A stretch of 47,920 nt of DNA from positions 1-47,920 of the forward strand of contig DASYZB010000149.1 of the NCBI GenBank assembly GCA_035946615.1, given 5' to 3'. The notes beneath the pieces are model-generated. The model searched no databases. It had not been told where the DNA came from and saw nothing but the letters and a program-made list of their open reading frames with translations. Origin of the DNA: Verrucomicrobiia bacterium. GTDB lineage: Bacteria > Verrucomicrobiota > Verrucomicrobiia > Limisphaerales > UBA8199. Positions 20,646 to 47,856 of the stretch are shown here, piece by piece (within the stretch, counting starts at the first letter, position 1; the number at the start of each line of letters is the position of its first letter). A program made the translations under genes and the position numbers.

Positions 20646-21605
20646 TCAGAGCCTCTGCACTTCGGCTTCCGCAGTTTTTAAGCCCTCCTGCTGGGGAGGG
20701 CACAGTCTGAAATAGAGCCAATTGGCGATAGGAACCAGGATCGCCGCCGTCAGCAGACCGGTCAGAACGTCCAGGCCATAATGGTATCTGCAATAGACGG
20801 TCGCCACACACAGCAGGATGGCCACGCCCAAATGGGCGTAGCGGATGCGGGGCAGGTACAGGAATGAGAAAAAGACCGTGCACATGGCGATGGCCACATG
20901 GCTGCTGGGCAGGGCCGCCCCCGGAGCTTCAATGACGCGGTAAATGAAGCTCACAATGTGATAAAACGGGCCGGCTTTGACTGTGTCAGGGTAAAAGGCG
21001 ATGGGAGCTAATTGCTGGCAAGCCCGCGGGAGGGAATAATCGGGCACATCATGAAAGAACACACGCGGCCCGACGATGGGCAAGGCTATATAGATCAGGT
21101 AACAAACATAGAAGACAAATGAAATAACAGAGATGTAATGGAAAAACTGTTGGCGATTGCGCAAATACAATGCCAGGCCAATGCCGCCGATCATCAGGTA
21201 ATACGAAAAATAAGAGGCATAAAGAATCTCGCTCAGGGCCAGGTCCGGCAGTTTTTGCATGAACAGCACGCTGGGTTGGCAGCCAAAGAGCGCTTGTTCC
21301 CAGCGGATGATCGACGGGTCCAGGTAGTGGTCCACAAACATCCGGTTCAACCAGCCTGTTTGCGCGAAAAGCCATGCGTAAAGCAGGACCGGATAGAAAT
21401 GGCGCAGAAAATTCAAAAGGCTCCCCAATCGGCGGCTGCCTTGAAATTGAATGAGGAGGTGGACCAGAACAATACCAGCCGCTTCGGATGCCAGAAGCCA
21501 GGGCCAATGAGGAACGGTTGCATTATGAAAGAAGAGAATCAACGCCCCCACCAGAGTCATGTAAGCCTGGGTGGCGTAATCGACAAAGGTGTAATGCCTC
21601 AACAT
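20646..21605 (-). CDS. PAP2-fold membrane protein, possible inositol-phosphoceramide synthase type
   Basis: 319 aa with about six to eight membrane segments. Two lipid-phosphatase motifs are clear: LPSSHVAIA (C2, with His) and CRYHYGLDVLTG (C3, His and Asp). The first motif (KxxxxxxRP) is not obvious, as in Aur1-type enzymes. The layout (long N-terminal membrane part, GPRVFF before the active-site motifs) fits the PAP2_3/Aur1-like group, which includes inositol-phosphoceramide synthases. It is the third gene of the SPT-reductase set, starting 12 bases after the reductase gene ends, so it is very probably cotranscribed. Role by context: transfer of a phospho-headgroup to a ceramide-like lipid, or dephosphorylation of a lipid intermediate. 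Confidence in the fold is high, in the reaction low. Confidence 0.8.
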   Translation of the reverse strand: MLRHYTFVDYATQAYMTLVGALILFFHNATVPHWPWLLASEAAGIVLVHLLIQFQGSRRLGSLLNFLRHFYPVLLYAWLFAQTGWLNRMFVDHYLDPSIIRWEQALFGCQPSVLFMQKLPDLALSEILYASYFSYYLMIGGIGLALYLRNRQQFFHYISVISFVFYVCYLIYIALPIVGPRVFFHDVPDYSLPRACQQLAPIAFYPDTVKAGPFYHIVSFIYRVIEAPGAALPSSHVAIAMCTVFFSFLYLPRIRYAHLGVAILLCVATVYCRYHYGLDVLTGLLTAAILVPIANWLYFRLCPPQQEGLKTAEAEVQRL

Positions 21606-21617
21606 GACCGAGCCAAA

Positions 21618-22601
21618 TTAAGGCAGCCATCCCTCTTTTCGATACCACTCAAGAGCTTCTGAAATCCCCTGTTTGAGCGGGGTCTCGCATCGAAATCCAA
21701 TCTCCTTCTCGAAGAGTGACGGCTCACACACCCAACCCGGGGCTCGCAACTCGGAGTACTTCTGCATGTTCAGCAACATTGCCCGGCCTGTCAGCCGGCC
21801 AAAGATCTCCTGTGCCAGGCACACGGGCCACAACGCCGCAGCCGGCAAAGGGCAAGGGAGCGTCCAACCCCCCATGGTTCCAGCGATTTGCTGCGCCATG
21901 CCGCTGGCGCTGACCCGCTCACGCGAGGCCACAAAATAGGCCTTGCCGGCAGCGCCAGGGTGGCCCAGGCAATTCACGACGGCTTGCGCCAGGTCTTTGG
22001 CATAGACGAGGCTTAGTATTTGTCGCCTGTTTGGCCGCGGCAGCAAATGACGGTGTACAGCGTTGAACATGGCAAAAAAACCGCTATCGCGCGGTCCATA
22101 AACAGCCGGCGGCCTCAGGATGGTGTAAACCGTGCGGCAATGATTGCGCACCTCGAGCTCTGCGGCCAGCTTGCTGCGGCCATATTCCGAGATGGGATTT
22201 GGCGCATCCAATTCGGTGGCGGGCCGTTCGGCCGTGGCTGGTCCAGCCACTGCCAGGCTCGATATATGTAGAAACTGTTGAATTGCTCCGTTACGCAAAT
22301 TGAGGGCTGCGACCATGTTGCGCGTGCCCGTTTCATTCACCTCATAAAAATCCGAGTTGCGCCTGGCCTTGGTGCATCCGGCACAATGAATCACATGGGT
22401 CGCATCTGCCAGGGCCTTTTCCAGGCTCTTCAGGTCGTTGATCGAGCCGGGCCGGACCTCGACGCAGCCCAGATGGCGCTGAACGAATTGTCGATTACTG
22501 GTGGGCCGCAGCAGGATGGCAGTTGGAATCGCCCGCTCAACCAAGACATCAAGGATATGGCTTCCAACAAATCCGCTAGCCCCGGTGAGGAGGACTTTCA
22601 T
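21618..22601 (-). CDS. Extended SDR NAD(P)-dependent reductase/epimerase, CerR-like by context
   Basis: 327 aa. N-terminal MKVLLTGASGFVGSHILDVL with the Rossmann glycine motif, HVIHCAGCTKARRN, HISSLAVAGP, and the catalytic YGRSK (YxxxK) motif. The C-terminal substrate domain ends EALEWYRKEGWLP, common for this family. Many members act on nucleotide sugars, but the sequence lacks a strong sugar-epimerase fingerprint, and the gene lies between an SPT-like enzyme and a PAP2-fold enzyme. In Caulobacter an NAD-dependent epimerase/dehydratase-type protein (CerR) acts in bacterial ceramide synthesis, so that role is proposed here. There is an 85-base gap to the SPT-like gene and a 12-base gap to the PAP2 gene. 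Confidence 0.85.
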   Translation of the reverse strand: MKVLLTGASGFVGSHILDVLVERAIPTAILLRPTSNRQFVQRHLGCVEVRPGSINDLKSLEKALADATHVIHCAGCTKARRNSDFYEVNETGTRNMVAALNLRNGAIQQFLHISSLAVAGPATAERPATELDAPNPISEYGRSKLAAELEVRNHCRTVYTILRPPAVYGPRDSGFFAMFNAVHRHLLPRPNRRQILSLVYAKDLAQAVVNCLGHPGAAGKAYFVASRERVSASGMAQQIAGTMGGWTLPCPLPAAALWPVCLAQEIFGRLTGRAMLLNMQKYSELRAPGWVCEPSLFEKEIGFRCETPLKQGISEALEWYRKEGWLP

Positions 22602-22686
22602 TTAAGAGCATGAGAAGACTTTAGGGAATCGGGGTTAATGGAATTTGGGGGTCCGGAGAAATCGGTTTGGCTTCCACTGGTCCCAA

Positions 22687-24009
22687 TCAGATTAACCCAA
22701 GTTCTCTGCCCACCTTGCTGATCTTTTCAAGGGCGAAATCAATCTGCTCATCCATATGGGTTGCCATGAGACTGATGCGGATTAGCTCGTGCCCAGGGGC
22801 AACAGCAGGAGAGACCACCGGGTTGACGAAGACGCCTTCGTCCTGCAAGCGTTTACAAATCTTGAACGCCACCATCAGGCTGCGGCAATAGACGGGCAGG
22901 ATAGGCGTTTCGGATTTGCCCAAATCAAAGCCCAGGCTGGTCAGGCCATTCTTCATACGCCCGGTGTTGCGCCACAATTGCCCGATGCGCTCGGGTTCCT
23001 GCATCATGATTTCGACTGCCGCCAGCACGGCGGCAACGTTCGCGGGACTCATGCTCGCGCTGAAGATCAGTGGACGGGAGTGGTGCTTGAGGTAATCAAT
23101 CGTCCCGGCATCCGAAGCGATGAATCCGCCCAGGCTGGCCAGCGACTTGCTAAACGTGCCCATGATAAGCTGGACCTGGTCCGTCATGTCGAAATGATTG
23201 GGGGTCCCGGCGCCATTCCTGCCCAAAACACCGATTGCGTGAGCGTCATCAATCATCACCGCTGCGCCATATTTGCTCGCAATCCGGCACAATTCGGGCA
23301 ACTGGATGACGTCACCCTCCATGCTGAACACCCCGTCCACTACCACCAGCTTGCCGGCCCCCGGTTCCAGTTGCTCCAAGCGGGTTTCCAACGCCTCCAT
23401 GTCTTGGTGCGGGAAGCGGAAGAACTTGCCTTGGGCGACGAGGCAGCCCTCAACAATGCTGGCGTGGTTGCTTTTATCGCCGATGATATAGTCGCCTTTG
23501 CCCACCAAGGCGCTGATAACGCCCAGGTTGACTTGAAAGCCCGTGCTGTAGAGCAGCACCGCCTCCTTGTTGACCAGTTTTGCCAAAGCCGCTTCCAGTT
23601 CCAGGTGGATATCCAATGTCCCGTTCAAAAAACGCGATCCGGCGCACCCGGTGCCGTATTTGGCAACAGCAGCTTGGGCAGCTTCCTTGATTTTGGGATG
23701 GTTCGTCAGCCCAAGATAGCTGTTGGACCCTAGCATCAGGACCCGTCGGCCCTCGATCATGACCTCGGTGTCCTGGGCAGAGGAAATCGTCCGAAAATAA
23801 GGGTATAATCCCAATGCCCGTACCTGGGCGGCGCTCTTGAAATTTTTGACCTTATCAAAGAGCGGTAGCCTGCCGTGGGCAGGTTTGCCCTTATTTCGGG
23901 TGGTCCGATGGTCTGTTTCCCGGATGCCTGCAGGACGCGGCAAGCGGTATACCTCGAGCTGCTCTACGTGCCCGTTGTCCCTGCTGGGCGCCTTTTCGTG
24001 GTAAATCAT
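22687..24009 (-). CDS. spt: Alpha-oxoamine synthase, probable serine palmitoyltransferase
   Basis: 440 aa from the ATG at 24009; a TTG at 24075 would add 22 residues of doubtful quality. About 60 N-terminal residues precede the core, which begins [17 protein letters not shown] fold-type I signatures: [59 protein letters not shown] with the PLP-binding Asp/His, and [11 protein letters not shown] with the Schiff-base Lys. These are shared by serine palmitoyltransferase, AONS (BioF) and KBL. No biotin or threonine dehydrogenase gene is near, while the SDR and PAP2 genes follow directly, so SPT (L-serine + acyl thioester to 3-ketosphinganine) is favoured. The exact substrate cannot be fixed from sequence alone. 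Confidence 0.83.
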
Positions 24010-24968: not shown

Positions 24969-25703
24969 ATGGCAAGAAGGCATAAGGGGTCGGGGAGACA
25001 AGTGGTCGAGGGCCGAGGGGGGCTTCCGGCATGGAAGCGGTGCCTGGATTATGGGCTCATTGCGCTTTTATCTCCGGCGATTCTGTTGGTCGGAACCGTC
25101 GTGGGGCTTCTGGTGAGGCTCGGCTCGGCTGGTCCGATTTTTTTCCGCCAGAAACGTGTCGGCTGCAAAGGCAGCCAGTTTACCTGCTACAAATTCCGGA
25201 CCATGCGAGTCGATGCGGAAACGGAATCGCATCGGCGCCATTTGCATGAATTGATTCAGTCGCGTCAGCCGATGACCAAGCTCGATGCGCATCGAGACCC
25301 GCGTTTGATTCCTTTCGGGTCCGTGCTGCGGGCCAGCGGACTGGATGAACTGCCGCAACTGCTCAATGTGTTGCGCGGTGAGATGAGCCTGGTCGGGCCG
25401 CGTCCATGTATTCCTTACGAATGCGAGAAATACCAGGCCTGGCACTGGAAACGATTTGATGCGGTGCCGGGTTTGACCGGCCTGTGGCAAGTCAGCGGCA
25501 AGAACCATACTACCTTCGAGCAGATGATCCAAATGGATATTGATTATTCTCAGAGGCGAAATCTTTGGCTCGATGTGCGGATTATTTTCAAAACGCTCCC
25601 CGCTCTTTGGGGGCAATACTGGGAGATGCGCGGATTCAAAAGCCAGGAAAGCGCGCCGCCCAGCCAGGCACTTCGGAAATCGGTTCAGTCCTACAACGTA
25701 TGA
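24969..25703 (+). CDS. Bacterial sugar transferase (monotopic phosphoglycosyl transferase)
   Basis: 244 aa. One hydrophobic re-entrant or transmembrane segment (YGLIALLSPAILLVGTVVGL) is followed by the complete family core: FFRQKRVGCKGSQFTCYKFR, TMRVDAE, DPRLIPFGSVLRASGLDELP with the catalytic Asp-Glu, LNVLRGEMSLVGPRP, and PGLTGLWQVSGKN. It transfers a sugar-1-phosphate from a UDP-sugar to undecaprenyl phosphate on the cytoplasmic face of the membrane, starting a glycan on a lipid carrier (PglC/WcaJ-type chemistry). It is first of four genes, and its TGA overlaps the ATG of the next gene (ATGA). The length matches short PglC-like members rather than long WbaP types. Confidence 0.94.
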   Translation: MARRHKGSGRQVVEGRGGLPAWKRCLDYGLIALLSPAILLVGTVVGLLVRLGSAGPIFFRQKRVGCKGSQFTCYKFRTMRVDAETESHRRHLHELIQSRQPMTKLDAHRDPRLIPFGSVLRASGLDELPQLLNVLRGEMSLVGPRPCIPYECEKYQAWHWKRFDAVPGLTGLWQVSGKNHTTFEQMIQMDIDYSQRRNLWLDVRIIFKTLPALWGQYWEMRGFKSQESAPPSQALRKSVQSYNV

Positions 25704-26845
25704 AAGCGATGAAAACAGCGATCAAAGTCGGGGTAATCGGGTGCGGCTACTGGGGCCCAAATTTAGTGCGCAACCTGAGGCAATCCGCCGATTGCCAGCT
25801 CAAAGTCCTGTGCGATGCGAGCGAATCCCGCCTGAGCCACATGCGCAAGCTCTACCCCGAGGTGCAAACCACGCGGGATTACAGCGACCTGCTCAAGGAT
25901 AACGGCCTGGACGCGATCGTAATCGCCACGCCTGTCCGGTTTCACCATCAGATGGCCAAAGCCGCGCTGGACGCTGGCAAGCACGTGTTTATTGAAAAAC
26001 CACTCGCTCGGACCGAGGTCGAGGCGGCCGAGCTGGTCGGCATCGCCCAGGCGCGAAAACTGATTCTGATGGTGGGACACACATTTCTGTTTTCCCCGGC
26101 GGTGCGCCGGATGAAGGAGATCATCGAGGCCGGCGACATCGGCGAGGTGCAGTATGTGTCCGCGCGCCGGCTCAACCTGGGCCTGTTCCAAAAGGACATT
26201 AATGTAGCGTGGGACCTGGCCCCGCACGACATTTCGATCCTGCTGCATTTGCTCGAGGAACTCCCGGTGAGTGTTGCCTGCCAGGGCAGCAGCCATGTCA
26301 CCCGTGGCATCGAGGATGTCACCATGATGAATCTCAAATTCCGCAAGAGCCGGTGCGCATTCATACACAATAGTTGGCTGGACCCAAAGAAAGTGAGGCA
26401 AATGACCGTGATCGGTTCCCAACGGATGATTGTTTATGACGACACCGAGCCGCTCGAGAAGCTGAAAATTTATGACGCCCGGGTCGAGGTGCCACCGCAC
26501 TACGACACCTTTGCCGAGTTCACTTATTCCTATCACTACGGGGATGCGTATGTGCCTTATATCAAGCAGGACGAGCCTCTGAAGCTCGAATGCCAGCATT
26601 TTCTGGAATGCATCCGTGACGGGACTGTGCCGGTCACCAACGGACAGCTCGGTCTGGAAGTGGTCAAGATTCTGGAGGCCTCCACCGAATCGCTCCGCCA
26701 ACATGGGGCTTCGGTGGCCCTGAGCTCAGCCGCTCCTTGGAACAACGGCCATACGAACGGCAATGGCCACACAAACGGCAACGGACATAATGCCGGCCTC
26801 CAAAACACGCCTATCGATTCTGAACGGGCGATGGTAGCCGCTTGA
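25700..26845 (+). CDS. Gfo/Idh/MocA oxidoreductase, WlbA/WbpB-like sugar 3-dehydrogenase
   Basis: 381 aa from the ATG at 25700, which overlaps the previous stop; an ATG at 25709 is also possible. N-terminal Rossmann motif VGVIGCGYWGPNLVRN, the EKPLA block (KHVFIEKPLARTEVEAAELV), and the substrate-side WDLAPHDISILLHLL with the conserved His. These match WlbA/WbpB enzymes that oxidise C3 of UDP-GlcNAc or UDP-GlcNAc-uronate. The following acetyltransferase and aminotransferase complete the pathway (3-oxidation, transamination, N-acetylation). Odd feature: near the C-terminus a low-complexity run NGHTNGNGHTNGNGHN precedes a short tail, probably a flexible linker. Confidence 0.88.
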   Translation: MKAMKTAIKVGVIGCGYWGPNLVRNLRQSADCQLKVLCDASESRLSHMRKLYPEVQTTRDYSDLLKDNGLDAIVIATPVRFHHQMAKAALDAGKHVFIEKPLARTEVEAAELVGIAQARKLILMVGHTFLFSPAVRRMKEIIEAGDIGEVQYVSARRLNLGLFQKDINVAWDLAPHDISILLHLLEELPVSVACQGSSHVTRGIEDVTMMNLKFRKSRCAFIHNSWLDPKKVRQMTVIGSQRMIVYDDTEPLEKLKIYDARVEVPPHYDTFAEFTYSYHYGDAYVPYIKQDEPLKLECQHFLECIRDGTVPVTNGQLGLEVVKILEASTESLRQHGASVALSSAAPWNNGHTNGNGHTNGNGHNAGLQNTPIDSERAMVAA

Positions 26846-26846
26846 T

Positions 26847-27332
26847 ATGAGCGAGCAACTGTTACAACGCATTGCCCCCGATGTGAAATTGGGGCAGCGG
26901 GTGAAGATATACTCGTTCACCAATCTCTATGGGTGCGAGATTGGGGACGACGTGAAGATCGGCACGTTCGTCGAAATTCAAAAGGGGGCACGAGTGGGTA
27001 ATCGCTGCAAGATTTCCAGCCATACCTTCATTTGCGAAGGTGTAACTCTGGAGGACGAGGTCTTTGTCGGGCACGGCGTCATCTTCATTAATGACCGCCA
27101 TCCGCGGGCCACCAATGCCGAAGGGCTCTTGCAGAGCGAAGCCGATTGGCAATGTGTGCCTACCATGGTCAAGCGGGGGGCCTCGATTGGGTCTGGGGCG
27201 ACCATCCTCTGTGGTGTTACTATTGGCGAGGGCGCTACTGTGGGCGCCGGCAGCGTTGTGACCCGGGATGTCCCGGAAGGCGCGGTCGTCGCTGGCAACC
27301 CCGCCCGTGTCCTTCGTCTTGCTGCCGTGTGA
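26847..27332 (+). CDS. Left-handed beta-helix N-acetyltransferase, WlbB/WbpD-like
   Basis: 161 aa, built from hexapeptide repeats ([LIV]GxxxxI): LGQRVKIYSF, IGDDVKIGTFVEIQKGARVG, VGHGVIFINDRHPRATN, then IGSGATILCGVTIGEGATVG and the closing GSVVTRDVPEGAVVAGNPAR. The HGVIFINDRHPRA segment is characteristic of WbpD/WlbB enzymes, which acetylate the 3-amino group of UDP-2-acetamido-3-amino sugars with acetyl-CoA. Active as a trimer in the cytoplasm. It starts one base after the previous stop and ends 7 bases before the aminotransferase start. Confidence 0.9.
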   Translation: MSEQLLQRIAPDVKLGQRVKIYSFTNLYGCEIGDDVKIGTFVEIQKGARVGNRCKISSHTFICEGVTLEDEVFVGHGVIFINDRHPRATNAEGLLQSEADWQCVPTMVKRGASIGSGATILCGVTIGEGATVGAGSVVTRDVPEGAVVAGNPARVLRLAAV

Positions 27333-27339
27333 AAATCTT

Positions 27340-28452
27340 GTGGACCTCCAAGTCCCATTCGTGGACCTGCGGCTTCAAAACGAAGCGCTGATGCCGGAGT
27401 TGCTCGATGCGTTCCGTGAGGTAACAGAGTCCAGCGCCTTTGCCGGCGGACCCTATGTGGCCCGGTTCGAGGCGGAATTTTCCGCATATTGCCGCGCGCG
27501 TTATGCCTTAGGGGTGGGCAGTGGGACCGATGCGCTGTGGTTGAGTCTTCAAGCCCTGGGGGTGGGCCCCGGCGACGAAGTGATCACCGTTCCCAACAGC
27601 TTCATGGCCACCGCTGAAGCCATCAGTTTGTGCGGGGCGCGCCCGGTCTTTGTGGATATTGACGAGCAGACCTGCACGATGGATGCGGCGCAGCTTGAGG
27701 CGGCCATCACCTTGCGAACCCAGGCCATCGTCCCGGTGCATCTGTTCGGTCAGATGGCCGACATGGATGCGATTCTCAAGATCGCGCGCCGCCACGGCAC
27801 ACCTGTCGTCGAGGACGCTTGCCAGGCGCATGGGGCCGAGTACCGAGGGCGTCGAGCGGGCAGTCTGGGGGTGGCGGGTTGCTTCAGCTTTTACCCGGGA
27901 AAGAACCTGGGTGCATTTGGCGAGGCAGGAGCAGTGACAACGGACGAACCCGAGCTTTGGTCTAAAATCCGCATGTTGAGGGACCATGGGCAAGCCACTA
28001 AACACATCCACTCGGCCATCGGCTGGAACGCCCGGATGGATGGCATTCAGGCCGCCGTTCTCAGCCTGAAATTGCGCTTATTGGATGCCGCCAACCAGGC
28101 CCGGCGCACTCACGCCCGCTTTTACGACGAACTCCTCGTCGATGAACCAAGAGTGGGCCGCCTCTCAACCGCTTCCCACAATCTTCATGTCTATCACATC
28201 TACGCCGTGCGCGTGGGCCATCGGGACCGCGTCCTGGAAAAGATGGTCGCCCGTGGCATCCATTGCTCCATCCATTATCCAGTCCCGATTCACCTGCAGA
28301 GGGCCTACGCGTTTTTGGGGTTGCGCCCGGGCTCTTATCCGGTTGCCGAACAATTGGCGCAGGAGCTTCTCTCGTTACCGATGTACCCGGAGTTGCGCCC
28401 CGAGCAGATCGAATTAGTCGTCAATACCTTGAAGGAGTGCCTGAGTGACTGA
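27340..28452 (+). CDS. DegT/DnrJ/EryC1/StrS aminotransferase, WlbC/WbpE-like
   Basis: 370 aa from a GTG at 27340, chosen because the conserved start VPFVDLRLQNEAL follows directly; the frame is open further up but lies inside the acetyltransferase gene. Motifs: GSGTDALWLSLQALGVGPGD, VITVPNSFMATAEAI, VPVHLFGQMADMD, VVEDACQAHGAEYRG, and SFYPGKNLGAFGEAGA with the PLP Lys. The C-terminal HYPVPIHLQRAY block is typical. WbpE/WlbC-type enzymes use glutamate to aminate the 3-keto sugar made by WlbA. Last gene of the operon; 131 bases separate it from the convergent acyl-CoA ligase. Confidence 0.92.
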   Translation: MDLQVPFVDLRLQNEALMPELLDAFREVTESSAFAGGPYVARFEAEFSAYCRARYALGVGSGTDALWLSLQALGVGPGDEVITVPNSFMATAEAISLCGARPVFVDIDEQTCTMDAAQLEAAITLRTQAIVPVHLFGQMADMDAILKIARRHGTPVVEDACQAHGAEYRGRRAGSLGVAGCFSFYPGKNLGAFGEAGAVTTDEPELWSKIRMLRDHGQATKHIHSAIGWNARMDGIQAAVLSLKLRLLDAANQARRTHARFYDELLVDEPRVGRLSTASHNLHVYHIYAVRVGHRDRVLEKMVARGIHCSIHYPVPIHLQRAYAFLGLRPGSYPVAEQLAQELLSLPMYPELRPEQIELVVNTLKECLSD

Positions 28453-28583: not shown

Positions 28584-30077
28584 TCAATCGAGCAGCGGCA
28601 TTTCTCTCAGCCGCGTTTTAAGTATCTTGCCGGAGGCATTGCGTGGCAGGGCGGGCAGAAGGACCACTTTTCGAGGGACCTTGTAATCCGCCAGTTTTTT
28701 GCGCAGGAACTGTTGGACCGCCTTTTCCTCGAGCACCGCCCCGTCGATTGAGGAAATAAACGCCACCGGTTGTTCGCCCCGCCGCAAATCCGGTTTGCCG
28801 ATGACGGCCGCCTCCTTGACTCCCGGGAATTCATAAAGGACCTCTTCGATCTCGCGCGGATACACGTTGATGCCATTGACCAGTAGCATGTCCTTCTTGC
28901 GGTCGGTGATAAAATAGTAACCCTCCTCGTCCCGGTAGCCGATGTCGCCGGTGAGCAGCCATCTCTCGCGCATGACCTTGGCGGTTTGCTGCGGCTGATT
29001 CCAGTAGCCCAGCATCACATTGCCCCCCCGCACACAGACCTCGCCAATCTCCCCCGCGCCCAATTGGTTGCCGGCGTCATCCTGGATGCTCACCTCGACA
29101 TTGGCGACAGGCAGCCCGATCGAGCCGGGCTTGCGCGCACCATTGAGCGGATTCTTTGTTACAACCGGGCTTGCCTCGCTCAGACCATATCCTTCGATGA
29201 GAGGAATCTTAAACTTCGCCTCAAATTCCTTCAGCACGACCACAGGCAGAGGCGCGGCGCCGCTGACGCATAGGCGGACGGGTAGCGGCACGGGCAACGA
29301 GACATTGACCATGCTGCGGTAAAACTGGGGAATGGCCGGGAGGATTGAAGCCTGGCGTTGAATGATTTCTTGCAGCACGTTGCGCACAGGGTGCAGCGAC
29401 TTTATCAGGACAATCGAGCCGCCCACCAGCAGCGGCAAGAATAATCCAACCGTCAGCATGTAGCTGTGGAAGAGCGGCAGCAACACGGCGAAGCGGTCCA
29501 ACTCGACAGTTTGAAGAACGATTCGGCAGCTTTCGACGTTGTGGAGCAGATTGCCATGGGAGAGCATCGCGCCCTTGGGGCGGCCAGTAGTTCCGGAAGT
29601 GTAAATGAGCAGGGCCAGGTCCGAAGCCGAGGGCTGCGCCGGTTGAATTTCTGGCGGCCAATCAGCGCCGTTGCCAGCGGTTTCATTGAATTCCTCAACT
29701 CTAAACAGCTTCAATCCTGGCCGCTCGGATGCGACTGCCCGAAAATGCGCCCCAAGTTCCGAGTCAGTAATCAGAACACCGATTCCGGCGTCCTGAATAA
29801 TGAACTTAACCTCGTCGGGTTTGAGGAAATTATTGATCGGAACGGCCACCGCCCCGGCCTGTAGAATCCCAAAGAGAGCGGAAACAAATTCCGGACAATT
29901 CTTAAGCCAGAGGCCAACGCGGTCGCCGGGTTTCACTCCGTCGTTCTGAAGACGGCCCGAGACCAGCAGGCTCTGGCGCCACAGGTCGGCATAAGAATAT
30001 TCGCGGTCGCCCCAAAACAGAGCGGTTTTGCCTGCGTGCTTTTGGACAGCATTCGCGAAAGCGGCAGCCAGATTCAT
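28584..30077 (-). CDS. AMP-forming acyl-CoA/acyl-ACP ligase
   Basis: 497 aa, near-normal length for a long-chain acyl-CoA ligase. Adenylate-forming motifs are complete: LLIYTSGTTGRPKGAMLSHG (P-loop), IEGYGLSEASPVV, WLLTGDIGYRDEEGYYFI with the ATP-binding Asp, DRKKDMLLVNGINVYPREIE (hinge), and the C-terminal catalytic Lys in LPRNASGKILKTRLRE. It activates a carboxylic acid, probably a fatty acid, with ATP to the acyl-CoA or acyl-ACP. No signal peptide, so cytoplasmic. It is about 4.6 kb from the SPT-like gene on the same strand; ligases of this kind occur in some bacterial sphingolipid loci, so a link is possible but unproven. Confidence 0.92.
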   Translation of the reverse strand: MNLAAAFANAVQKHAGKTALFWGDREYSYADLWRQSLLVSGRLQNDGVKPGDRVGLWLKNCPEFVSALFGILQAGAVAVPINNFLKPDEVKFIIQDAGIGVLITDSELGAHFRAVASERPGLKLFRVEEFNETAGNGADWPPEIQPAQPSASDLALLIYTSGTTGRPKGAMLSHGNLLHNVESCRIVLQTVELDRFAVLLPLFHSYMLTVGLFLPLLVGGSIVLIKSLHPVRNVLQEIIQRQASILPAIPQFYRSMVNVSLPVPLPVRLCVSGAAPLPVVVLKEFEAKFKIPLIEGYGLSEASPVVTKNPLNGARKPGSIGLPVANVEVSIQDDAGNQLGAGEIGEVCVRGGNVMLGYWNQPQQTAKVMRERWLLTGDIGYRDEEGYYFITDRKKDMLLVNGINVYPREIEEVLYEFPGVKEAAVIGKPDLRRGEQPVAFISSIDGAVLEEKAVQQFLRKKLADYKVPRKVVLLPALPRNASGKILKTRLREMPLLD

Positions 30078-46746: not shown

Positions 46747-47856
46747 ATGGCGATAAAAGACGGCTTGCAGCCTCGTGAAACATCGAGGACGGTTCGGCGG
46801 TGGGGATGGCAACTCCTGGGTTATGCTATAGCGGCTGGCTGTTTGTATTGGGTCTTCCACAACGTCCCCTTCGCCCAGGTGCTGCGCTCGATCCTGAGAA
46901 TCGATTGGTGGTGGGTGCCCTTGGCCGCAGCCCTGGACCTGCTCGTGTACGCATGCGCCGCGTGGGAATGGCAGTTGCTCCTGAAACCAGCCGGCCATCT
47001 ATCTTTTGGGCAAACCTTGAAAGCCCTTCTCGCCGGACGCTTCGCCAATGACGTGTTGCCCGTTCACGCAGGCTATATTATTCGCGTTTACCTCGCTTCG
47101 GCCTGGACCAAGGCCACCATTGCCGAGGTGCTCCCCTCTCTTTTAATCGAACGGCTCTTTGACTCGTTCTGGCTGGCGTTGGGCATTGGTTTGACCGCCT
47201 TCTTCTTTCCTTTGCCAAGCAAACTCGCGCGGACGGGCGAGATTTTAGGCGGATTCATCGTTGCCGGCGTGGCGATGATAACCTGGACCACCTTCCGCAA
47301 GAGGAAACCGCGTTCAACCCAAAGACCAGCAAGATTCTCTCACTCGAAAACGGTGTTAAGGCTGCATTCCTTTCTTCAGCGGCTGGCCCAAGGCCTCCGC
47401 AGCATTGGCAGATCAAATCTGATCCTGGCGGCTCTCGGTCTTTCGATCATTAAACTCATCATTCAATGCCTGGCCTTTCTGGCGCTGCTCCACGCGTACG
47501 CGTTACAATTCTCACTCTGGACGCAGTTAGCCGTTTTCATCATCGCCTACATTGGAATTTCCATGCCCAGCACCCCGGCTGGGATTGGGGTGTTTCAACT
47601 CCTGTGTGTCGCCGGCCTCCGCTTTTTTGGCGTTCCCAAACCAGTCGCCAGCGGCTTTGCCTTGCTGGCATACGTCGTCTTGACCCTCCCCTTAGCTATT
47701 GCCGGTCTTATCGCCGTCACCCAAAGCGGACTGACCTTGCGCAGCATCCGGCGCCAAATCTCCCAATGGAAGCGGCCTTCCCCGATCCTTAGCCAGGTGA
47801 GGAAAAATGCACAGGTAGGTGAAAAATCTGTTGACACAACATCACCATTATGGTGA
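46747..47856 (+). CDS. Flippase-like integral membrane protein (UPF0104/YbhN type)
   Basis: 369 aa with about eight membrane segments. Matches the lysylphosphatidylglycerol synthase transmembrane region / AglD-YbhN family: LAGRFANDVLPVHAGYIIRV, SLLIERLFDSFWLALGIG, and the C-terminal SMPSTPAGIGVFQLLCVAGL followed by FGVPKPVASGFALLAYV. These proteins are thought to move lipids or lipid-linked molecules across the inner membrane. A basic loop (RKRKPRSTQRPARFSHSKT) occupies the middle. Its stop codon lies inside the palindrome that precedes the next gene. Confidence 0.85.
   Translation: MAIKDGLQPRETSRTVRRWGWQLLGYAIAAGCLYWVFHNVPFAQVLRSILRIDWWWVPLAAALDLLVYACAAWEWQLLLKPAGHLSFGQTLKALLAGRFANDVLPVHAGYIIRVYLASAWTKATIAEVLPSLLIERLFDSFWLALGIGLTAFFFPLPSKLARTGEILGGFIVAGVAMITWTTFRKRKPRSTQRPARFSHSKTVLRLHSFLQRLAQGLRSIGRSNLILAALGLSIIKLIIQCLAFLALLHAYALQFSLWTQLAVFIIAYIGISMPSTPAGIGVFQLLCVAGLRFFGVPKPVASGFALLAYVVLTLPLAIAGLIAVTQSGLTLRSIRRQISQWKRPSPILSQVRKNAQVGEKSVDTTSPLW

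Follow-up and report, generated by a model that had tools for sequence, protein, structure and literature searches.

Organization of the locus

The window analysed here is a stretch of 47,920 nucleotides from the genome of a Verrucomicrobiia bacterium (contig DASYZB010000149.1 of assembly GCA_035946615.1; 5.6 Mb in 161 contigs, 96 percent complete) and contains three consecutive genes on the minus strand whose products very probably form a sphingolipid and add a phosphate head group to it. The first gene (22687-24009) encodes a predicted serine palmitoyltransferase (SPT) of 440 amino acids, assigned on NCBIfam, structure-library and tree evidence, with the start codon ATG at 24009 and the pyridoxal 5'-phosphate (PLP) lysine at K288. 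The second gene (21618-22601) encodes an extended short-chain dehydrogenase/reductase (SDR) of 327 amino acids with the catalytic motif YGRSK, assigned to the CerR (3-keto-ceramide/3-ketosphinganine reductase) family. The third gene (20646-21605) encodes a PAP2-fold membrane protein of 319 amino acids, a predicted Aur1-type ceramide phospho-headgroup transferase with H236, H275 and D279 as the predicted catalytic residues. Gaps of 85 bases (22602-22686) and 12 bases (21606-21617) separate the genes. A first-pass annotation, made from the sequence alone, had described three same-strand genes with these gaps; the coordinates agree with that description, and the motifs it named, HYGLDVLTG included, are present in the translations of the open reading frames (ORFs). 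Seven relatives align with the SPT from residue 1, which supports the 440-residue start. A scan with the sigma-70 consensus, which says little for this phylum, finds no promoter-like sites (shuffled sequences give a mean of 2.2). We infer that the triplet is transcribed as a single operon.

The serine palmitoyltransferase

The best NCBIfam model for the window oxoamine synthase is NF047600 (SPT, CFB type) with 604 bits, compared to 397 for KBL and 380 for BioF; the score falls 36 bits short of the 640-bit equivalog cut-off of NF047600, so that the name SPT rests on the tree and on gene linkage. In a structure library, the best match is the SPT 8guh/3a2b, presumably from S. multivorum, with 487.7 bits, compared to 291.9 for the best KBL or BioF structure. 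Trees were built from 11 of the 42 SPT-bearing loci from genome contigs together with references. In a tree of 36 oxoamine synthases, the window protein falls within a 24-row clade (support 99/98) that includes the solved SPT and the SPTs of Parabacteroides, Escherichia coli BL21 and Roseomonas; this clade excludes KBL and BioF of E. coli, the three other oxoamine synthases of the source genome and seven divergent ones from the phylum. A second tree, which omits eight long-branched rows (the protein from contig C46 of the source genome among them), groups the source-genome protein from C116 with KBL (100/100) and that from C113 with BioF (95/83), the latter placement being unsure, with two long branches that meet. 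Residues K244, H138, D210, H213 and R367 of the solved SPT, which we take to be the PLP lysine, the stacking histidine, and the aspartate, histidine and arginine of the active site, correspond to K288, H182, D254, H257 and R411 of the window protein; these residues do not discriminate, given that KBL and BioF of E. coli have all five. Taken together, these comparisons place the window protein in the SPT family, with condensation of serine as the predicted reaction, and the trees separate it from KBL and BioF; firm grouping with either of these would have spoken against the first-pass annotation. The protein resembles the Bacteroidota-type SPT (3a2b/8guh, Parabacteroides) in the best structure and hidden Markov model matches, in clade membership and in the conserved PLP lysine, stacking histidine and arginine. 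It differs from that type in an N-terminal extension of about 45 residues, which is common to some close relatives, and in the score below the equivalog cut-off.

Alpha-oxoamine synthases differ in substrate, so the use of alanine or cysteate, which would yield a 1-deoxy-ceramide or a sulfonolipid, has to be weighed. The C1 hydroxyl of the sphingoid base comes from serine, not from alanine, and the phospho-head-group enzyme encoded in the same operon requires this hydroxyl, which disfavors alanine; as for cysteate, the structure of the cysteate acyltransferase, 28eh, reaches about half the bit score of the SPT structure (244 versus 487.7). Although 1-deoxysphingolipids have been reported from euxinic waters (PMC11334938), we consider either of these substrates very improbable for the window enzyme.

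The CerR-type reductase

The window SDR matches the Pfam family Epimerase. A profile trained on 14 SDRs, those of the window and of 13 other loci, detects the reductase of the E. coli BL21 sphingolipid cluster with 176 bits, the Roseomonas reductase with 159 bits and Bacteroidales proteins with 255-287 bits, although one training sequence comes from a Bacteroidetes metagenome-assembled genome (MAG) and may raise the Bacteroidota scores; the next unrelated SDR, RfaD, scores 48 bits. The dehydrogenase/epimerase of the BL21 cluster is reported to be the orthologue of Caulobacter CC_1164 (PMC9386255), which has been named cerR (PMC11324152); we matched this orthologue to the annotated BL21 gene by the gene order of the cluster. 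The margin between the BL21 reductase and the background bears out the identification of the second gene as a CerR-type extended SDR, as first annotated, and reduction of a 3-keto group is the predicted activity. The likeness to CC_1164 and to the BL21 reductase is that of members of one SDR family, as judged by the profile. The gene context differs from that of the BL21 cluster in that the window CerR gene adjoins a PAP2 gene and that no acyl carrier protein (ACP) or acyl-ACP synthetase gene lies directly beside the SPT gene.

The Aur1-type PAP2 protein

The window PAP2 protein matches PF14378 (PAP2_3), presumably the Aur1/Ipt1 family, with 56 bits at a cut-off of 27. Its nearest named relatives come from Verrucomicrobiota, several of them titled subdivision 3 or Limisphaerales, and no NCBIfam family matches the protein or two of its relatives at E 0.001. 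A profile of 53 members (the window protein and 52 of the 75 usable loci; five further loci of the 80 have a stop within the range) identifies AUR1 as the first hit (E 9.4e-6), followed by a Bacillus subtilis phosphatase (6e-4). The catalytic segment of AUR1, GAFPSLHSG...STMYLTHHYFVDLMAG, aligns without gaps to the profile segment AAFPSSHVA...STVYCRYHYVVDVLAG. The predicted structure of the window protein (predicted local distance difference test score, pLDDT, 93.8) is closest to AUR1, with Z 18.9 (root mean square deviation, rmsd, 4.0 over 257 residues) and Z 18.7 (rmsd 4.2 over 265 residues), followed by LpxE (Z 14.7, rmsd 3.0 over 162 residues), G6PC1 (14.4) and YodM (13.6); for helical bundles, Z values up to about 13 may reflect a common arrangement, so that AUR1 stands above this level and the phosphatases are near it. 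In a Foldseek search with the same model, only two AUR1 entries pass E 0.001. The membership in PAP2_3, the AUR1 fold over the whole length and the predicted His-His-Asp triad make this protein Aur1-type by sequence and modelled fold, at an identity to AUR1 of only 12-13 percent in the fold alignment. The Aur1 type of the first-pass annotation thus stands, AUR1 being the closest match in both profile and fold; the inositol head group that such likeness implies fares less well, as discussed below.

The PAP2-fold structures listed in these comparisons are mostly phosphatases, with LpxE, G6PC1 and YodM next after AUR1, and the protein could accordingly be a lipid phosphatase, with, e.g., a phosphorylated sphingoid or undecaprenyl diphosphate as substrate, rather than a transferase. 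The AUR1 match, however, spans 257-265 residues including the N-terminal helices, against 162 for LpxE. Furthermore, the arginine of the third motif (SR...H...D), which we take to be a mark of the PAP2 phosphatases, is present in YodM and replaced by T269 in the window protein; this threonine is invariant in all 53 rows of the alignment, and AUR1 also has threonine at the position. We therefore regard a phosphatase as distinctly unlikely.

A ceramide synthase encoded elsewhere in the genome

The first-pass annotation found no gene for a bacterial ceramide synthase (bCerS) in the window, which is the case; a genome-wide check detects a single gene of the bCerS/YghO family on another contig, unlinked to the triplet (G000:C23:3498-4625). 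This family came to attention through the neighborhood analysis, followed by comparison with Roseomonas, E. coli BL21 and the description in PMC9386255: in 20 neighborhoods from 19 relative genomes, the recurrent non-shadow neighbor of the triplet genes is a GNAT protein of 380 residues. A profile of this family (36 of 45 members; the sequence from locus L150 was dropped due to a stop in the translated range) detects the protein of the Roseomonas cluster with 372 bits, E. coli YghO with 360 and a Bacteroides finegoldii protein with 260. The GNAT protein of the source genome and the plasmid-borne YghO share 32 percent identity over the full length. YghO is described as the orthologue of Caulobacter CC_1154 (PMC9386255), the proposed ceramide synthase (PMC11324152). 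The predicted structure of one family member (locus L077; pLDDT 90.7) is a tandem GNAT, with the closest similarity to MAB_4324 (Z 25.8, rmsd 3.1, 304 aligned residues) and with N-myristoyltransferases at Z of about 16-17. Thus, by sequence comparison via YghO, the protein encoded on contig C23 belongs to the bCerS family.

Two other identifications were considered and rejected. The FemAB_like family (PF04339) is not found in the source genome, although the same search detects it in the Caulobacter and Synechococcus controls, and taking bCerS for a FemAB_like protein would have led to the conclusion that the enzyme is absent; the tandem-GNAT/YghO family fits instead, FemAB_like being matched only weakly by 9 of the 36 GNAT members (best 6e-5). 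Nor is the GNAT family a new ceramide synthase family, given that it belongs to the known YghO/CC_1154 family.

As a separate observation, in four genomes of one family bCerS adjoins an oxoamine synthase domain within a frame of about 1320-1370 residues (L163 7942-11991, L164 2637-6737, L165 7333-11292 and L166 2645-6619), perhaps a fused synthase for another N-acylated amino lipid.

Genomic context in relatives and in other phyla

In a set of 58 genomes of relatives, the source genome included, the triplet of SPT, SDR and PAP2 genes is uninterrupted and on one strand in each of the 18 genomes where the SDR was found. Given this contiguity, the grouping exceeds chance, and the linkage in relatives, on which the original proposal of a sphingolipid operon depended, holds. 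Full-length PAP2 is encoded in 21 of the 58 genomes and the GNAT protein in the identical 21, at cut-offs that were set after the score gap had been seen (PAP2 E 3.8e-72 or lower, GNAT 7.9e-99 or lower); outside these cut-offs fall weak, partial hits to PAP2 in nine further genomes (E no better than 2e-6), a weaker GNAT match in G013 (2.6e-84) and a trace in G028 (4.8e-4). SPT orthologues (at least 659 bits, with the next best at 275) occur in 19 of the 21 PAP2-GNAT genomes and are not found in the remaining 37; the SDR occurs in 18. In the 19th SPT genome, G010, SPT and PAP2 are located on different contigs, with PAP2 cut by a contig end and GNAT read in two pieces. Of the 18 genomes with the contiguous triplet, 6 have the GNAT gene next to it.

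The association extends to other phyla. Among the best 80 of 327 PAP2 loci (named genomes), many of which end at contig ends, 21 combine SPT, SDR, PAP2 and GNAT, another 21 have SPT, SDR and PAP2, five have GNAT, SDR and PAP2, three have SDR and PAP2, 19 have GNAT and PAP2, and 11 have PAP2 alone. Six of these 80 loci show the same-strand order SPT-GNAT-SDR-PAP2, namely two deltaproteobacterial (L116, L122), three planctomycete (L131, L134, L142) and one from Lentisphaerae (L148). The bCerS gene is unlinked to SPT in the source genome; these six loci, all of other phyla, have it between SPT and SDR.

A wider draw of 288 genomes of the phylum, the source genome included (cut-offs E 1e-40 for PAP2, 1e-60 for GNAT and 1e-120 for SPT), yields PAP2 in only four genomes (G000, G217, G069 and G222), GNAT in 19 and SPT in eight. 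Three of the four PAP2 genomes encode GNAT and two encode SPT; GNAT is present in six of the eight SPT genomes (not in G260 and G339) and PAP2 in two of these eight; and just 3 of the 19 genomes with GNAT have PAP2 as well. Where GNAT occurs without such an SPT (13 genomes), a more divergent oxoamine synthase lies no more than about 1.1 kb from the GNAT gene in eight genomes and at 5.5 and 10.7 kb in two; G178, G187 and G217 have none near it. Given that SPT and GNAT often occur without PAP2 and that PAP2 is rare (4 of 288), PAP2 is an accessory of particular lineages and does not belong to every bacterial sphingolipid set.

Predicted pathway and head group

The genes described above suggest a complete route. 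SPT would condense L-serine with a long-chain acyl thioester to give a 3-keto sphingoid base; the tandem-GNAT bCerS encoded on contig C23 would N-acylate this base; the CerR-type SDR would then reduce the 3-keto group to yield dihydroceramide; and the Aur1-fold PAP2 protein is predicted to transfer a phospho-head group from a glycerophospholipid to the C1 hydroxyl of dihydroceramide via a phospho-histidine intermediate. Phosphatidylethanolamine is the likely donor, in which case the product would be ceramide phosphoethanolamine (CPE). The best explanation overall, and in our judgment a probable one, is that the triplet is a phospho-sphingolipid operon that acts with an unlinked bCerS and a likely phosphatidylethanolamine donor; the gene content supports the prediction that this organism makes a phospho-headgroup sphingolipid.

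Several observations weigh against this explanation, in addition to the SPT score below the equivalog cut-off. Caulobacter CerR is reported to be periplasmic (PMC11087976), whereas the window SDR begins directly at the Rossmann motif. Two of the 58 genomes, G036 and G046 (96 and 93 percent complete), encode PAP2 and GNAT, with neither SPT nor SDR found, the SDR having been sought genome-wide with 38 of 61 and 38 of 58 first-look candidates scored. In the wider draw, G069 has PAP2 without either GNAT or SPT, and six of the eight SPT genomes are without PAP2 at the cut-off. Parabacteroides distasonis has a CerR-type reductase with no adjacent PAP2 gene. Finally, fold and motif cannot settle with certainty the donor, or whether the enzyme is a transferase or a phosphatase.

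With regard to the head group, the similarity to AUR1, the best match in both profile and fold, would point to an inositol phosphorylceramide synthase that uses phosphatidylinositol, and the AUR1 homologue BT_1522 is required for phosphoinositol dihydroceramide in Bacteroides thetaiotaomicron (PMC9246714). The window PAP2 protein shares with AUR1 the PAP2_3 family, the whole-length fold and the ungapped catalytic segment; it departs from the Aur1/BT_1522 system in being linked to CerR and not to an inositol-phosphate synthase (MIPS). A search for PF07994, which we take to be the MIPS family, finds no member in the 58 genomes, that of the window included, despite matches in 5 of 14 controls, one of them a Bacteroides. 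Distant relatives of the PAP2 protein (29-31 percent identity) are encoded directly after a CerR-type gene in B. finegoldii and in Prevotella sp. oral taxon 299, and in Phocaeicola massiliensis a PAP2 gene is split over two records, with its start at the end of the record that bears the reductase gene and the rest at the beginning of a second one. The PAP2 gene of B. finegoldii is located between rnr and dusB, next to the CerR gene, with no MIPS or CDP-alcohol transferase gene adjoining. Inositol uptake or another route may provide an inositol-phosphate donor; nonetheless, the failure to find MIPS lowers the inositol head group, and we consider an inositol phosphorylceramide synthase quite improbable.

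Instead, several lines of indirect evidence point to phosphoethanolamine. The source genome encodes phosphatidylserine decarboxylase, with a CDP-alcohol phosphatidyltransferase gene directly adjoining. In four Bacteroides species for which measurements are reported, B. finegoldii not being one of them, CPE is the sphingolipid of highest abundance (PMC10056535). Deletion of BT_1522 leaves phosphoethanolamine dihydroceramide unaltered in B. thetaiotaomicron (PMC9246714), and no match to a eukaryotic ethanolamine phosphorylceramide synthase is reported for this bacterium (PMC8791184). The open-licence sources consulted leave the enzyme that makes this lipid in Bacteroides unassigned, and an assignment may exist elsewhere. 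Because MIPS is not found in the 58 genomes, phosphatidylserine decarboxylase is present, the CerR-PAP2 pair occurs in Bacteroides and CPE is abundant in that genus, we predict phosphoethanolamine, not inositol, as the head group attached by the window operon, and the PAP2 relatives in gut Bacteroides are good candidates for the head-group enzyme.

Alternatively, the PAP2 protein could transfer another head group to ceramide, e.g., phosphoglycerol from phosphatidylglycerol. A lipid band of Porphyromonas gingivalis has been described as probably phosphorylglycerol-dihydroceramide (PMC9246714), and a Rubrobacter plasmid encodes SPT-like, bCerS and CerR proteins followed by an LTA-synthase-family protein, an arrangement suggestive of glycerol-phosphate head groups in certain lineages. 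Against this, PAP2 is paired with CerR in a Bacteroides species, and CPE dominates in four other species of the genus (PMC10056535). We consider such a donor unlikely for the window enzyme, the head group being, in general terms, more likely ethanolamine- or glycerol-based than inositol-based.

Loci with bCerS and PAP2 genes only

PAP2-GNAT loci without SPT and CerR are represented by L158 (15173-17539 in G036), by the unlinked L159 and L160 (G046), by L124-L127, L132, L133 and L135, and by others. Among the 18 genomes that contribute the 19 PAP2-GNAT loci described above, one (G348, locus L126) has a clear SPT elsewhere in the genome, six encode an SPT-like oxoamine synthase of about 300 bits, which the tree places inside the SPT-like group, ten reach no more than the KBL/BioF level (at most about 265 bits) and one shows no match; for the SDR, the search covered the locus only. 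The missing steps are those needed only for de novo synthesis, which makes salvage of already reduced bases a natural reading and suggests that bCerS and PAP2 without SPT and CerR form a possible sphingoid-base salvage module. Bacterial salvage of sphingoid bases has been called unclear (PMC11324152), and these genomes bear on that question.

Implications

The core ceramide pathway of bacteria has been described before, as have SPT-like genes of Verrucomicrobiota, the latter in 22 MAGs (PMC11334938). What appears to be new, as far as the open-licence literature was searched, is the coupling of CerR to an unnamed Aur1-type PAP2 family across several phyla, together with the testable assignment that results from it. 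The whole route, including the head-group step, is laid out here as linked or co-occurring genes, and the PAP2 gene offers a one-gene test of CPE synthesis in gut Bacteroides. In its broadest form, the proposal would be that the PAP2 family is the bacterial CPE synthase, coupled to CerR across Verrucomicrobiota, Desulfobacterota, Planctomycetota and Bacteroidales, with a salvage role where SPT and CerR are lacking; we advance this combination tentatively and rate it somewhat below an even chance. If it is true, the dominant sphingolipid of gut and oral Bacteroidales (Bacteroides, Phocaeicola and Prevotella) is the product of this PAP2 family, and the lineages with only bCerS and PAP2 turn sphingoid bases from other organisms into phospho-sphingolipids.

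Related loci and neighboring genes

Two further loci show other arrangements. In the Rubrobacter radiotolerans plasmid (L187, 5686-11278), the row of SPT-like, bCerS and CerR genes that precedes the LTA-synthase-family gene perhaps includes an actinobacterial phosphoglycerol head-group step. In Nonomuraea gerenzanensis (L186, 7710-11062), a PAP2 relative is convergent with genes for a CerR-type SDR and a bCerS relative and is unannotated in the plasmid table.

In the window itself, divergent exopolysaccharide-type genes encoding a sugar transferase, a Gfo/Idh oxidoreductase, a hexapeptide acyltransferase and a DegT aminotransferase are located at 24969-28452. By ORF clustering, the sugar transferase, Gfo/Idh and hexapeptide genes also occur near the triplet in G011 (L044, 13936-16491) and in none of the others among the 20 neighborhoods. 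A gene for an AMP-forming acyl-CoA ligase (28584-30077) is located 4.6 kb from the SPT gene; its candidacy as a dedicated acyl-activating enzyme was dropped because it was not found again in the 20 neighborhoods of 19 relatives, several of which are short and in which ORFs were picked roughly. At 46747-47856, the window encodes a protein with the lysylphosphatidylglycerol synthase transmembrane region (PF03706), possibly a lipid-modifying enzyme.

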